A stretch of DNA of 64,000 nucleotides from Acidimicrobiales bacterium (lineage in GTDB: Bacteria > Actinomycetota > Acidimicrobiia > Acidimicrobiales > SHLQ01). The stretch lies in contig JAHDEJ010000004.1 of NCBI GenBank assembly GCA_020628865.1, positions 99,374 through 163,373 on the forward strand. The letters are read 5' to 3'. A program made the position numbers and the translations under genes. Of the stretch, positions 10,687-62,320 are shown in pieces. Each line of letters opens with the position of its first letter. The first letter of the stretch is position 1. The notes below the pieces were generated by a model that searched no databases, was not told the DNA's origin, and saw only the letters and a program-made list of their open reading frames with translations.

Positions 10687-11325
10687 TCAGGGTCGTTCGC
10701 CGAAGTCCGGTCCGACGGTTCGGGTGCGCTTGAGCTCCCAGAAGCCGTCCATCGTTGCCATGGTGACCATCGCATCCCAGAGCGCAAGGCCTTCCTCGCC
10801 TTCCGGCTTGCGGGAGATCACGGGGCCAAAGATTCCCTTGCGGCCCTCCGGGCTGTCAAAAGCGATGATCGGTGTTCCCACGTCGTCGCCGACGAGCGCC
10901 AGGCCGGCATCCATCTTCTCGCGGATGACTGCATCCCAGGATTCGTCGTCGAACGCTGCGGCATGGCTCGTGTCGATCCCGGCAGCTTCGAGGAACGGCG
11001 ATGCGCCGCCGGTCATGACCGCATCCATGTCGGCGTCGCCGGTTGTCCGGTCGTGGTGCAGAACCGAACCGAACTCCCAGTAGAGGGCCTGCGCGGCGGC
11101 CATGCCCTCGGTGGCCTTCACGGACTCGAACACCCGCAGCAATTTGTGGGTGAAGTTCACCGGCGGGAAGTAGTCGGAGTCTTCCGGCGGCTTGTTCTTG
11201 AACAACAGACTGATCGGCTGCCACGTGATGTTGAGATCACGTTCCGGCTCCACAACGTCGACGACCCAACGGGCCGTCATCCAACACCAGGGTCAAATGG
11301 GGTCAATCCAGAATTCGATGTCCAT
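10687..11325 (-). CDS. Selenocysteine-containing DsbA-fold oxidoreductase, Rv2466c (mycothiol-dependent nitroreductase) type
   Basis: 212 residues if TGA at 11295-11293 is read as selenocysteine. The N-terminus is then MDIEFWIDPI-Sec-PWCWMTARWV, matching the FWFDPLCPWCW thioredoxin-like active site of Rv2466c-type proteins with Sec11 in place of the nucleophilic Cys and Cys14 as partner. The rest (VGTPII, FFELKRTRT-like FWELKRTRT end) is typical of that family, which reduces substrates with mycothiol. Starting at Met 11280 instead would remove the active site. A hairpin with a GUU loop (11278-11260) begins 14 nt after the TGA, as in bacterial SECIS elements. AGGG precedes the ATG at 11325, and a strong terminator follows. 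Confidence 0.85.
11260..11278 (-). promoter_or_regulatory. Bacterial SECIS-like hairpin of the DsbA-fold selenoprotein
   Basis: On the minus strand, GACGGCCC (11278-11271) pairs with GGGTCGTC (11267-11260), 8 bp including one G-U, around the loop GTT. It starts 14 nt after the TGA at 11295-11293, and the loop begins 23 nt after it. A G followed by U at the loop start fits the bacterial SelB-recognised element. Confidence 0.7.
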
Positions 11326-11395
11326 GAACGGACCCTATCGACTCAGATGCCGTCACGATGGCCCGGTCGTCGACCAGGCTCGTTTTCCACGATGC

Positions 11396-11418
11396 GGAAG
11401 TGGCTTGCCAGTGCTTCC
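11396..11418. promoter_or_regulatory. Composite palindrome upstream of the second IclR gene
   Basis: GGAAG (11396-11400), the palindrome TGGCTTGCCA (11401-11410), a 3-nt spacer and CTTCC (11414-11418). It ends 21 bp before the IclR ATG at 11440, in the 114-bp gap shared with the divergent selenoprotein gene. It is a candidate autoregulatory operator, differing in sequence from the one at 6054-6070. Inference from symmetry and position only. Confidence 0.4.
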
Positions 11419-11439
11419 ATTCTTGGCGACGATGGTTGC

Positions 11440-12162
11440 ATGACCGTTCAGAGCGTCGATCGGGCGCTCGCACTGCTCGCAATCCTCGGGGACCGACCCG
11501 GCGGCCTCGCGGACGTGTCGACGAGGGCCGAGCTGCCGCTCAGCACAACGTCGCGACTGCTGGACACGCTCGTCGTCGGCGGTGCTGTCGAACGTGGCCC
11601 GGATGGCCTCTTCCGAATCGGGCCGCTCGTCCATCGGCTCGGAGCGGCGTCCTCGACCTCGACCGCGTCGATCGAGTCCCGTGGCGCCGAGACGGTGGCC
11701 GCCCTTGCGGACGAGCTCGACGAAGCGGCCTGCATCTCGGTGCCCATCGGGTCCGAGACGCTCACGATCATGCAGATCGCCGTTCCCAAACCGGTGCAGG
11801 CACAGAACTGGACTGGGCATCGCTGGTCGATCACCGGTGGAGGCTCAGGGGCCGTGATGATGTCGACCTGGCCGACCAGTCGGGTTGAACCGCTCCTGGC
11901 TGCGCTCGACGAACACGAGCGAACCTCGGTGCGCAAGGAGATTCAGAAGGCCCGGCGTACCGGTGTGAGCTGGAGTCACGGCACGTACGTCGAGGGGCTG
12001 TCGAGTGTGGCGGCTCCGATTCTCGATGCGGATGGCATCGCCGTCGCCGCCGTCCTGGGCTACGGCCCGACCTACCGATTCCCCGGAAAGGGAAACGTGC
12101 AATCCGTTGCGGCCGCGGTTGCAACAGCCGGCGCAGAGATCACCCGTCGATTGGAGACGTGA
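11440..12162 (+). CDS. IclR family regulator coupled to an MttB-family gene
   Basis: 240 residues: helix-turn-helix at about 5-65 (SVDRALALLAIL, ADVSTRAELPLSTTSRLLDTL) and an IclR effector domain (SVAAPILDADGIAVAAVLGYGPTYR). The stop overlaps the start of the methyltransferase gene (TGATG), so the two are translated together. This implies the regulator senses a substrate or product of that enzyme. It is the second IclR protein within 6.5 kb. The ATG at 11440 is chosen because the HTH begins at once; the open frame upstream belongs to a shadow. Confidence 0.88.
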   Translation: MTVQSVDRALALLAILGDRPGGLADVSTRAELPLSTTSRLLDTLVVGGAVERGPDGLFRIGPLVHRLGAASSTSTASIESRGAETVAALADELDEAACISVPIGSETLTIMQIAVPKPVQAQNWTGHRWSITGGGSGAVMMSTWPTSRVEPLLAALDEHERTSVRKEIQKARRTGVSWSHGTYVEGLSSVAAPILDADGIAVAAVLGYGPTYRFPGKGNVQSVAAAVATAGAEITRRLET

Positions 12163-13679
12163 TGGCCAGACGAGGACGAGCTCGATCGACGGCGACGGAG
12201 CCCCGGATCCGCCAGCTGCCCTGGCGACAGGTCAAGAACCCCCATGGCACGCTCCCGATCCTCGATCGCGAAGGGGTGGAACGCATCCACGAAGCATCGC
12301 TGCGTGTGCTCGAGGAACTGGGCATCGAGCTGTGGAGCGAGGACGCCCGCAAGCTGTTTGCCGACGCCGGAGCGACTGTGGACGGCGAGGTCGTTCGAGT
12401 CGGACGGGAGGTCATCGAAGAGGCCCTTCGCACGGCACCGAGCGAATTCACGCTGAGCGCCCGAAACCCGGACAAGGTCATCACCCTCGGGGGCAACAAC
12501 CTCGTCTTCGGTCTCGTCGCCGGACCACCGGCCGTGCACGACGAGATCAACGGTCGCCGGCCATCGAACATGGACGACTACGAGCAGTTCATTCGGCTGG
12601 CCCACTACTTCAACGCCGTCCACATCATCGGCAACCAGGTCGCCGCGCCGATGGAACTTCCGGCCAACAACCGGCATCTCGACACCTACCGCGCCAACCT
12701 CACCCTCTCGGACCTGAGCTTTCACTGTTTGGCCATCGGGCGCGGCCGAGCGCTCGATGGCATCGAGATGATGGCCATCAGTCGGGGCATGACCGTCGAA
12801 CAGATGAAGGACTCGCCCGGCGTCATCACCGTGATCAACGTGAACTCGCCTCGACGGTTCGACGAGGAGATGGCCAACGGCCTGATGACGATGGCCGAGC
12901 ACGGCCAGGCCGTTTCGGTCACGCCATTCACGCTGATGGGAGCGATGACCCCGGTGACACTCGGCGCCGGCCTCGTCCAGCAGAACGCGGAGGCGCTGTT
13001 CGGCATCGCCCTCACGCAACTGACGAACCCCGGTGCACCCGTGGTCTACGGGTCCTTCACGAGCAATGTCGACATGCGTTCGGGCGCGCCCGCCTTCGGC
13101 ACGCCCGAACACGCGAAGGCGAATGTGGCCAGCGGTCAGCTCGCCCGGCGCTACGGGCTGCCGTACCGGTCGTCCAACTCGAGTGCATCGAATACGGTCG
13201 ACGCGCAGGCGGCATACGAAACGCAGATGTCGCTCTGGGGATGTGTGCTCGGTGGCACCAACCTGATCTACCACGCCGCCGGATGGATGGAAGGTGGGCT
13301 CCAGGCCAGCTACGAGAAGTTCATCCTCGATGTGGAGATGCTCCAGCACATGATGGAGTTCTTGACGCCGATCGATCTGAGCCAGGACGAGCTCGCCTTC
13401 GACGCGATGCAGCGGGTGCCGACGGGAGGCCACTTCTTCGGCGATGAACACACGCTCGCCCGATACGAGAACGCGTTCTACTCGCCCATGCTGTCCGACT
13501 GGCAGAACCACGGTGCCTGGGTGGAATCCGGCGCCAAGAATGCGACCGAGCGAGCGACCGCACTCTGGCAGACCGCCCTGGACGACTACGCCGAACCGCC
13601 GATGGACGACGCCATCCGCGACCAACTCGACGACTACGTCGCCCGCCGCAAGGAACAGATCGGCGATGGCGATCCCTGA
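12162..13679 (+). CDS. Trimethylamine methyltransferase (MttB) superfamily protein, non-pyrrolysine
   Basis: 505 residues covering the whole MttB fold (HEASLRVLEELGIELWSEDARKLFADAGA near the start; typical family length is about 500). Members transfer a methyl group from quaternary or tertiary amines (trimethylamine, glycine betaine, carnitine, proline betaine) to a corrinoid protein. There is no in-frame TAG, so it is of the non-pyrrolysine branch. No corrinoid protein or corrinoid methyltransferase gene is in the window. GGAG five bases before ATG 12162 supports that start over the GTG at 12159. The adjacent butyrobetaine/carnitine genes suggest a quaternary amine substrate. Confidence 0.88.
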   Translation: MARRGRARSTATEPRIRQLPWRQVKNPHGTLPILDREGVERIHEASLRVLEELGIELWSEDARKLFADAGATVDGEVVRVGREVIEEALRTAPSEFTLSARNPDKVITLGGNNLVFGLVAGPPAVHDEINGRRPSNMDDYEQFIRLAHYFNAVHIIGNQVAAPMELPANNRHLDTYRANLTLSDLSFHCLAIGRGRALDGIEMMAISRGMTVEQMKDSPGVITVINVNSPRRFDEEMANGLMTMAEHGQAVSVTPFTLMGAMTPVTLGAGLVQQNAEALFGIALTQLTNPGAPVVYGSFTSNVDMRSGAPAFGTPEHAKANVASGQLARRYGLPYRSSNSSASNTVDAQAAYETQMSLWGCVLGGTNLIYHAAGWMEGGLQASYEKFILDVEMLQHMMEFLTPIDLSQDELAFDAMQRVPTGGHFFGDEHTLARYENAFYSPMLSDWQNHGAWVESGAKNATERATALWQTALDDYAEPPMDDAIRDQLDDYVARRKEQIGDGDP

Positions 13680-13685
13680 GCCCGA

Positions 13686-14225
13686 TCAGCCGGCGGCTGC
13701 GCCGATAAGATCGGAAAGCGACGGCGTGTTCGGGAGCTGGAAGAGGAAGTAGCGCTTCCCGCCGATCTTCGTTTCTGCGTGCGGACCATCGAGCACTCGC
13801 AGCGCGGGCGGTGCGCCGCCCGGGAGCTTGTCGACCAGCGTTGCGGAGGCGAGCTCGTGTGCGGGAACCGTCATGTTCGCCTTGTGCTGAATCGCCTGCC
13901 GGCCCTGCGCGTCGTAGATCTCCAGATTCGTGCCGATCTCCTGGCGGAACTTCTCGAGGATCTTGTCGCCGGCGATCGCCCCCAACCCCGATCCGGCCAC
14001 GGTGGTGACGTCGAGCGGTGCAACGAACCGTCGCTCATACGGGTTGTTCGGGTTCATCCCATTGGCTGCCATCCCGAGCGCCAGGTAGTCCGGACTCCAG
14101 TGCGCTCCGCCCGGCCCAACCCTGGTGAAGTGCGCCGACGCCCCCTCGAGTTCGACCACGAAGGTGTGGGCCATGCTGGTCATCCCTTTCTTCCAGCCCA
14201 CGAGTGCGGTTCGCATGTCGGTCAT
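13686..14225 (-). CDS. Conserved-looking hypothetical protein
   Basis: 179 residues, not recognised. It has no signal peptide and no strong membrane segment. Features are a Gly/Ala-rich middle (TTVAGSGLGAIAGDKILEKF) and a C-terminus that reads like a beta-sandwich (AETKIGGKRYFLFQLPN). The start at 14225 has AAGGA five bases upstream; further upstream the open frame has no ribosome site. It converges on the methyltransferase gene with a 6-nt gap and is divergent from the glutathione peroxidase gene, with 145 nt between. No function is proposed. Confidence 0.7.
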   Translation of the reverse strand: MTDMRTALVGWKKGMTSMAHTFVVELEGASAHFTRVGPGGAHWSPDYLALGMAANGMNPNNPYERRFVAPLDVTTVAGSGLGAIAGDKILEKFRQEIGTNLEIYDAQGRQAIQHKANMTVPAHELASATLVDKLPGGAPPALRVLDGPHAETKIGGKRYFLFQLPNTPSLSDLIGAAAG

Positions 14226-14344
14226 TTGATTCCTTCCCGCCGTCGCCCACCGCGACGTGCCATGCCATCGTCCCGTGCAACTCGGTGCGTGGTCTGGCCA
14301 CCTGGCGCCAAATGCCACGATTTCTTCGCGGGGAACCAAGCGAG

Positions 14345-14366
14345 AGGAGGCGCCGAGCTACGCTCG
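14345..14366 (+). promoter_or_regulatory. Displaced Shine-Dalgarno plus hairpin in the glutathione peroxidase leader
   Basis: AGGAGG (14345-14350) is 20 nt from the ATG at 14371, too far for normal initiation. Between them CGAGC (14354-14358) and GCTCG (14362-14366) can form a 5-bp hairpin that would bring the effective spacing to about 7 nt. No in-frame start exists nearer to the AGGAGG. A structural role is inference. Confidence 0.35.
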
Positions 14367-14370
14367 CCCC

Positions 14371-14829
14371 ATGAACTTCCACGAACTCACGATGGAGTCG
14401 ATCACCGGTGAATCGATCGACTTCTCCTCCTATGCCGGGCAGCACTGCCTGATCGTCAACGTCGCGAGTCGTTGAGGCGCCACGCCGCAGTACGCAGGTC
14501 TGCGTACCCTCCACAACGATGTCGACGGACTCACCGTCCTCGGGTTTCCGTGCAACCAGTTCGGCGGGCAGGAGCCCGGAACGAATGCGGAGATCCTCGA
14601 GTTCGCCACCTCGAACTATGACGTCAACTTTCCGATGTTCGCGAAGATCGATGTGAACGGCGACGCCGAGGCCGAGCTCTACACGATGCTCAAGGCGGCC
14701 CAGCCCGGGGACATCGGATGGAACTTCGAGAAGTTCCTCGTCGATGGCGACGGCAACGTGGTCGCCCGGTGGGGCACCGGCGACACCCCCGAGGCGATCG
14801 GCGAGCAGCTTCCCTCACTCATGGGCTGA
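14371..14829 (+). CDS. Selenocysteine glutathione peroxidase
   Basis: 152 residues with Sec35 encoded by TGA 14473-14475. The context VNVASR-Sec-GATPQYAGL matches the glutathione peroxidase active site, and the family tetrad is complete: Sec35, Gln67 in FPCNQFGGQEPG, Trp117 and Asn118 in GWNFEKF. The frame stays open on both sides of the TGA, and family motifs continue, so this is not a decayed gene. A hairpin beginning 14 nt after the TGA (14490-14507) has the SECIS-like loop GGTC. The enzyme would reduce hydroperoxides, probably with thioredoxin or mycothiol systems. The stop overlaps the convergent cyclodeaminase-like gene by 11 bp. Confidence 0.88.
14490..14507 (+). promoter_or_regulatory. 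Bacterial SECIS-like hairpin of the glutathione peroxidase
   Basis: GTACGCA (14490-14496) pairs perfectly with TGCGTAC (14501-14507) around the loop GGTC. The stem starts 14 nt after the TGA and the loop 22 nt after it. A loop opening with GG and a U fits the SelB-binding consensus. The spacing is the same as in the selenoprotein at 10687-11325. Confidence 0.75.
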
Positions 14830-60802: not shown

Positions 60803-62320
60803 TCAACCGCAGGGTGTGTCGATGCGTTCCTGTCCGGTGTGGGTGCGAAGCTCGTAGGTCGCACCGTTCGGAGCGTTGCGGTCGACGAAGTTGTCGACCC
60901 CACGTCCGAGCGTGGCCAGCCACTTGCCGTTTCGACGGATCACGTGCCGGCCGCCATCATCGGTCCACTCGAGGCGGACCGTGTCGCCGTCGCGTGCCAC
61001 CACGCAGTCCGGCGTGTTGCCGTCGCCCTCGACGCACGCGCGGGTCGTGACACCACCGCCACGAATGACGTAGGTGGCACCCGCCGGAGCATTCAGGTCG
61101 ACGTAGCTGGTGGTTCCGTTCGTGAGCGTGGTGAGCCAGGAACCGTTTCGGCGGACTGCCGGGGTCCGTCCGTCGTCGCTCCAACTGAGCGTCACGGTGT
61201 CGCCGGTTCGCGTGGCCGTGCAGCCGTCGCCAACCGGGGTGGGCACTGCCGGGGGCGCCGGGTCGGCTCCGCCACCGTCACCGTCGTTGCCACCGCCACC
61301 ACCGCCAGCGACGATGTCTGCCCGATAGAAGTTGTCGTTGGCGAGGCGGGTCGCCGCACTCAGCGCAGAGCTGCTCGAGTCCAACCACCAGTCGCAGTTG
61401 TTGTTGCCGTTCGGGCTGTCGTCGTAGTGGAAGTAGAGGATCGCCGCGAAGCGATCCTTGTACTCGCCAGACTTGAACAGGGCACGGGTCTCGTCGAGCC
61501 ACTGTGCCTTCTGTCCGTTGTTGCCCTCGGGTGTGCCGAACTCGGCGAGGATCAGCTGCTTGGAGGGATGCTTGCGGGCGAATCGCATGAACGGTTCGAG
61601 GCCTTCCTCGAGGGTGTCCCAGCTGTCGTTGTTGTCGCGGCAGGTGGCCCAGTTGTACTCCTGGACCGAGATGTAGTCGACGACGTCGTCGCCCGGGTAC
61701 CACTTCTCTGCGATGCGACGGTCGTTCGGGTGGATGTCGCCGACCTCGAATGCCCAGGACGTCATGATCCAGGCGAAGCGCACGTTGTCCACGCCCTGCT
61801 GTTCGAACACGTCGTGGAGTTTGCGGAATGCGGCCTTGTAGTCGGAGCTCGTGCCGAAGCCCAGGTTCTTCTTGTGTTCGGGTTCGTGATGGAAGCCCAG
61901 CACAACGGTGTCGCCGTAGCGCTTCACGCCGCTCGCCAGCGCCAGCATTTCGTTGTGGATCTTCGAACCGGGTTGGGCGTTGGCGATGTCGCTCCAACGG
62001 ACTTCCTGGCCGTTGCCTCGCTGCGGCTTGATCGATGCCATGAGCTGGCGGTCGCCGTCACGGATCCAGCGATGGAACTTCTTGTCCTCGCCGATCGAAT
62101 CGTCCCACTTGCTGAAGGTGCGAACCATGGGGAGGGTGGTGCCGAGTTGTCGCTCGAGCCTTTCGATTGCCGTCGTGTTGGTGAGCCCGTCCACCGGGGC
62201 GGCGTACGCCCCGAATGCGACTCCGTTGTCGAGTGCTTCCGCTTCGCCGACGAGCCCTGTTGTCAGAGTGCCTGCGACCATCAGGAGTGCGAGCACGCAC
62301 CCCGTCGTCATTGTTTTCAT
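60803..62320 (-). CDS. Secreted GH26-like glycosidase with two C-terminal modules
   Basis: 505 residues. Signal peptide (MKTMTTGCVLALLMVAGTLTTGLVGEAEA). GH26-like barrel at about 35-330, with the acid/base Glu in LGFHHEPEHKK and the nucleophile Glu in LILAEFGTPEGNNG. After a Gly-rich linker come two Cys-bounded modules at 367-429 and 439-504. The catalytic part is paralogous to 39190-40728, whose tail is RTX repeats instead. GGGAGG five bases before ATG 62320 fixes the start. Likely cleaves an extracellular polysaccharide. Confidence 0.85.
   Translation of the reverse strand: MKTMTTGCVLALLMVAGTLTTGLVGEAEALDNGVAFGAYAAPVDGLTNTTAIERLERQLGTTLPMVRTFSKWDDSIGEDKKFHRWIRDGDRQLMASIKPQRGNGQEVRWSDIANAQPGSKIHNEMLALASGVKRYGDTVVLGFHHEPEHKKNLGFGTSSDYKAAFRKLHDVFEQQGVDNVRFAWIMTSWAFEVGDIHPNDRRIAEKWYPGDDVVDYISVQEYNWATCRDNNDSWDTLEEGLEPFMRFARKHPSKQLILAEFGTPEGNNGQKAQWLDETRALFKSGEYKDRFAAILYFHYDDSPNGNNNCDWWLDSSSSALSAATRLANDNFYRADIVAGGGGGGNDGDGGGADPAPPAVPTPVGDGCTATRTGDTVTLSWSDDGRTPAVRRNGSWLTTLTNGTTSYVDLNAPAGATYVIRGGGVTTRACVEGDGNTPDCVVARDGDTVRLEWTDDGGRHVIRRNGKWLATLGRGVDNFVDRNAPNGATYELRTHTGQERIDTPCG

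Follow-up and report, generated by a model that had tools for sequence, protein, structure and literature searches.

Probable SECIS hairpins downstream of in-frame TGA codons in a glutathione peroxidase gene and an Rv2466c-like gene of an Acidimicrobiales bacterium

The window (the whole 64-kb stretch of DNA that was analysed) includes a glutathione peroxidase (GPx) gene and an Rv2466c-like gene of the DsbA fold, each with an in-frame TGA followed by a hairpin. The features of these genes, together with the TGA-bearing redox genes noted elsewhere in the genome, include:

14371..14829, + strand: probable GPx selenoprotein gene with an in-frame TGA as codon 35; PF00255 matches across the TGA, and 24 homologs in the class carry TGA
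14473..14475, + strand: predicted Sec TGA of GPx (NVASRUGATPQY), aligned with the Cys codon TGC of homologs L043-L048
14490..14507, + strand: probable SECIS element of GPx, a 7-bp hairpin with the loop GGTC, based on folding and conservation
10687..11325, - strand: probable Rv2466c-like (DsbA-fold) selenoprotein gene with a UPWC motif; PF22234 match, 44 TGA loci
11293..11295, - strand: predicted Sec TGA of the Rv2466c-like gene; the homologs L055, L060, L063 and L096-L098 have Cys at this site
11260..11278, - strand: probable SECIS element of the Rv2466c-like gene, a hairpin of 8 bp (9 if 11279/11259 is counted) with the loop GTT, based on folding and conservation
Beyond the window (G000 L248, L250, L252, L255, L257, L258, L259, L261 and L262): nine more redox genes that carry TGA; their motifs include WAPWUPTC, YRGDWUPYC and CPTULEAH

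The GPx frame starts at the ATG of 14371 (+) and matches PF00255 across the TGA (E 7.3e-39, 132.1 bits, cut-off 27). Its stem is formed by arms 14490-14496 and 14501-14507 (7 bp), which enclose the loop GGTC (14497-14500); 14 nt separate the TGA from the stem, and the loop starts at +22. The Rv2466c-like frame starts at the ATG of 11325 (-) and matches PF22234 over the full profile (1-180/180; E 1.5e-34, 120.1 bits, cut-off 27) and, more weakly, PF01323. Its TGA takes the place of the first Cys codon of the CPWC motif, and relatives have Cys forms. The stem spans 11278-11260 with 8 bp, one being G.U, and the loop GTT starts at +23. Coordinates, stem lengths and loops, including loops that open with G and then G or U, are exactly those of the original prediction. 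The identical 14-nt spacing that was also predicted holds for GPx and for the 8-bp form of the Rv2466c-like stem; strictly, the latter starts 13 nt past the TGA, because an extra U.G pair (11279/11259) lengthens it to 9 bp.

Folding favours the GPx hairpin throughout and the Rv2466c-like hairpin in part, as in a 48-nt context the former appears in both the MFE and the centroid structure, whereas the latter appears in the centroid and is displaced from the MFE by another fold. When the first 11 nt past the UGA are omitted, as presumably covered by the ribosome while at the UGA, each hairpin is the MFE structure (-9.5 kcal/mol for GPx and -13.7 for the Rv2466c-like gene). The Rv2466c-like hairpin also belongs to the MFE of a 78-nt stretch. 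In isolation, the hairpins have energies of -8.5 (GPx) and -12.2 kcal/mol (Rv2466c-like).

The stem of the Escherichia coli fdhF SECIS has a bulged U, which is absent here, the GPx and Rv2466c-like stems being fully paired. The fdhF element (NC_000913.3, b4079) has the same GGTC loop as the GPx hairpin, shares with it the ten identical bases GCAGGTCTGC and likewise lies within the reading frame past the TGA, as do both hairpins of the window; its loop starts at +19, compared to +22 (GPx) and +23 (Rv2466c-like). The bSECIS model, as given in the accessible text of a 2026 review (PMC13188914), has a loop of 3-9 nt, a stem of 4-16 bp, a spacing of 16-37 nt from the UGA to the loop, a G among the first two bases of the loop (G[G/U] in most cases) and an MFE of -7.5 kcal/mol or lower. 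Both hairpins fit every constraint of the model in that text, with nothing outside it: loop and stem sizes are 4 nt and 7 bp (GPx) and 3 nt and 8-9 bp (Rv2466c-like), the UGA-to-loop spacing is 21 and 22 nt, respectively, and the loop G and the energy limit are found in both.

Matching geometry in the two genes had been regarded as improbable by chance, a view that the window itself does not bear out. After 13 of the 1465 TGAs of the window (both strands), a stem of 7 bp or longer with a loop of 3-5 nt starts at the exact 14-nt offset, and after 95 of them such a stem starts at one of the offsets 8-21; thus, equal spacing is no more than mildly unusual. Of 1464 window TGAs, 181 precede a bSECIS-like hairpin with an energy of -7.5 kcal/mol or lower, and the identical Rv2466c-like stem arises in 385 of 3000 synonymous recodings (with the codon usage of six window ORFs), hence is not rare. 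These two counts favour the reading that the hairpins are functionless by-products of the protein sequence and of GC-rich codons. By the same recoding, the GPx stem recurs in 48 of 3000 sequences. As a hairpin with suitable spacing is frequent among the window TGAs, it does not make a strong case alone, and the strength of the assignment comes from conservation.

When hairpin and coding signals were combined in a scan of the 1464 window TGAs, the GPx and Rv2466c-like TGAs ranked as the top two, and the filter passed one further TGA, whose downstream score is weaker and whose upstream score is negative. In the window, sixteen TGAs are followed by a stem of 7 bp or longer at the 14-nt offset or by a GG/GT loop at +22/23; judged by eye from their context, those beyond the two genes gave no selenoprotein. 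An Rfam scan of the window, with a family set that may include no bacterial SECIS model, returned no match at gathering thresholds. At 60805 (-), a long open frame ends in a TGA with a GC-rich hairpin (GACCCGACCCCCACCGGGGTCGGGTC) directly past it, which looks terminator-like by eye.

Conservation was examined in 395 genomes of the class, the named relatives being mostly Acidimicrobiales or Acidimicrobiia MAGs. For GPx, the 24 best matches each carry one TGA, and the subsequent matches among those listed have none. The Rv2466c-like sample comprises 44 TGA loci and 6 Cys loci; five TGA rows of lower identity (G190, G217, G366, G119 and G385) were left out. The nearest Rv2466c-like locus, from an uncultured Acidimicrobiales bacterium, has 97% identity. 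The GPx stem is paired in 165 of 168 cells (7 pairs, 24 TGA loci) and the Rv2466c-like stem in 351 of 352 (8 pairs, 44 TGA loci), compared to at most 121/168 and 244/352 in a control in which one side of the stem was slid by 1-3 nt. The GPx stem has single-side changes only, with no double compensatory change among the 24 loci, and one A-C mismatch in 3 of them; a compensatory exchange is found in two Rv2466c-like loci. All 24 TGA loci of GPx have the loop GGTC. The Rv2466c-like loop, taken as five bases, is CGTTG in 20, CGGTG in 15 and AGGTG in 9 of the 44 loci, such that a GTT, GGT or AGGT core is present in all. A second contig set, which overlaps the first genome set, has TGA in 74 of 80 loci; the TGA loci retain 7/7 core pairs in 69 cases and 6/7 in 5, and 2, 2, 3, 4, 4 and 6 core pairs are left in the 6 Cys loci.

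The synonymous codons of the stems are likewise constrained. Within the 28 codons past the TGA, synonymous codon identity in GPx is 0.90 in the stem vs. 0.53 outside (3/20000 permutations); in the Rv2466c-like gene, it is 0.81 vs. 0.52 (80/20000). For two other TGA-bearing genes of the genome, it is 0.94 vs. 0.53 (FdhA; 5/20000) and 0.72 vs. 0.49 (SelD; 1010/20000, a weak signal). These permutation figures are not strict probabilities, because the sequences are related. All 24 GPx loci share codons that are rare in the window ORFs, GCA (0.14 of Ala) and GGT (0.13 of Gly), which argues against by-products of coding, as do the paired cells near 100% and the Cys homologs of both families, which are much alike in protein sequence and lack an intact stem (at most 3 contiguous stem pairs in the 12/12 examined). 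Hairpins without function are thus extremely unlikely. Among the GPx loci, that of G305 (L030) has Ser in place of the Gly directly after the Sec TGA (ASAUSLTPQY) and retains the hairpin. The distance between the GPx and Rv2466c-like genes is about 3 kb here (window 10687-14829), about 13.6 kb in G368:C15 and 9.4 kb in G387:C28, and in other genomes the two are frequently on separate contigs.

The default meaning of TGA is all that speaks for the TGAs being genuine stop codons, errors of sequencing, mutations in pseudogenes or codons for another amino acid. The identical TGA is found at the catalytic Cys position in dozens of genomes, the frame is open on either side of it, TGA terminates other genes of the window (e.g., 12159-13679), and a tRNA-Sec is present, all of which tell against this group of explanations. 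It can be given next to no probability.

The genome (an Acidimicrobiales MAG of 5.36 Mb in 113 contigs, completeness 95.88) encodes a full Sec gene set: selA adjoins selB, and selD and a tRNA-Sec with anticodon UCA are present. The TGA at the catalytic Cys position, the conserved stems and loops, the synonymous constraint, the Cys homologs without a stem and this gene set form the observed basis on which the hairpins, predicted to be SECIS-like, are very probably SECIS elements. Both are almost certainly genuine bSECIS of real selenoproteins.

Other genes of the genome bear on the suggestion that the 14-nt spacing defines the SECIS consensus of the lineage. The selD gene itself has a TGA (HGAGUGCK), and its best hairpin has the loop GTG at +34, with 24 nt ahead of the stem; fdhA also has a TGA, with the loop GGTCT at +19 and 12 nt ahead of the stem, and its hairpin (-6.8 kcal/mol) falls short of the published -7.5 kcal/mol cut-off. 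TGA-bearing matches make up most of the best rows listed in the SelD and FdhA searches over the 395 genomes. Of these TGA matches, a subset was analysed (30 loci fetched per family): the SelD hairpin is paired in 203/203 cells with 8 double-change cells (29 TGA loci), and the FdhA hairpin is paired in 180/180 cells with the loop GGTCT in 30/30 loci. In one genome (G083), SelD has Cys (TGT; L128), yet a GGTCG loop with 5 contiguous stem pairs is still found where the SECIS would lie, which may be left over from a recent Sec-to-Cys change.

Two family searches added the nine TGA genes beyond the window, as 7 of 14 AhpC-TSA and 2 of 3 CMD matches. The loops of their best hairpins start at +17 (L252), +19 (L261), +21 (L257 and L259), +22 (L248) and +27 (L255 and L258). 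The hairpins of L248, L252 and L258 do not reach -7.5 kcal/mol, and a simple hairpin test found no convincing hairpin for L250. L262 (G000:C105, around 80353) has two TGAs in one thioredoxin-like active site, WAPWUPFU (UxxU), and a weak GGTC hairpin. With GPx, Rv2466c-like, SelD and FdhA, the candidate selenoprotein genes of the genome that carry TGA number at least 13, four of them backed by conservation.

Hairpin position is fixed in relatives inside each of the four families (GPx, Rv2466c-like, FdhA and SelD) and differs between families. A lineage rule could draw on the spacing common to GPx and the Rv2466c-like gene and kept within each family, and on L257, where the stem also starts at +15. 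The loops at +17, +19, +21, +27 and +34 in L252, FdhA, L259, L255/L258 and SelD, respectively, count against such a rule, as do the SelD and FdhA hairpins conserved at other offsets; no single UGA-to-stem distance holds for all selenoprotein genes of the genome. A rule of this kind is therefore very unlikely, and the 14 nt shared by the two genes is taken as coincidence, because other TGA genes of the same genome place their loops elsewhere. The recurrent feature is the loop, often GGU(C), rather than the spacing: it is found in E. coli fdhF (+19), FdhA, GPx, L255, L258, L261, L262 and some SelDs. Taken together, it is highly probable that both hairpins are coding-region SECIS elements, for a Sec GPx and a Sec Rv2466c-like protein, at a distance from the TGA that is equal by coincidence.

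The mechanism is ordinary and the element of a known kind. By analogy with established knowledge of SelB binding, Sec insertion and the enzyme activities, the ribosome would reach the UGA, and SelB with Sec-tRNA(Sec) would bind the G[G/U] apical loop about 22 nt downstream, such that Sec would be inserted instead of termination. The two genes are predicted to yield a glutathione peroxidase with Sec and a thiol oxidoreductase of the Rv2466c family and DsbA fold, likewise with Sec (UPWC). Each gene family keeps its own UGA-to-hairpin distance.

GPx is a listed selenoprotein family, and DsbA-like UxxC selenoproteins (COG2761/PF01323) are also listed, in the accessible text of three papers (PMC1088965, PMC2398784 and PMC9312934). 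The family listed there is PF01323, whereas the gene described here matches best to PF22234; the published DsbA-like selenoproteins may nonetheless belong to this same group. An Rv2466c family member with Sec was not found in the open-access literature searched and is unnamed in the accessible parts of the published selenoprotein family lists. Among the open-access papers listed on selenoproteins of Acidimicrobi-/Ilumatobacter and on selenoproteins with mycothiol, none appears to describe these genes. In the accessible text of a 2016 survey (PMC5029168), organisms count as selenoprotein-rich at six genes and are mostly Deltaproteobacteria, Clostridia and Synergistetes; the actinobacterial MAG examined here has at least 13 TGA candidates.

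A guess made by eye thus becomes two well-supported selenoprotein assignments, for which loop sequence and codon freezing, not spacing, are diagnostic. There is perhaps an even chance that a broader picture holds in full, in which the Acidimicrobiia are an under-described, selenoprotein-rich actinobacterial class, a widespread Sec (UPWC) form of Rv2466c replaces the Cys form, and unrelated genes carry near-fdhF GGUC loops at family-specific distances, such that SelB here may recognise the loop by its sequence and accept it anywhere between about +17 and +34. The findings point to a clade in which Sec use is common and in which such genes are easily annotated as truncated.
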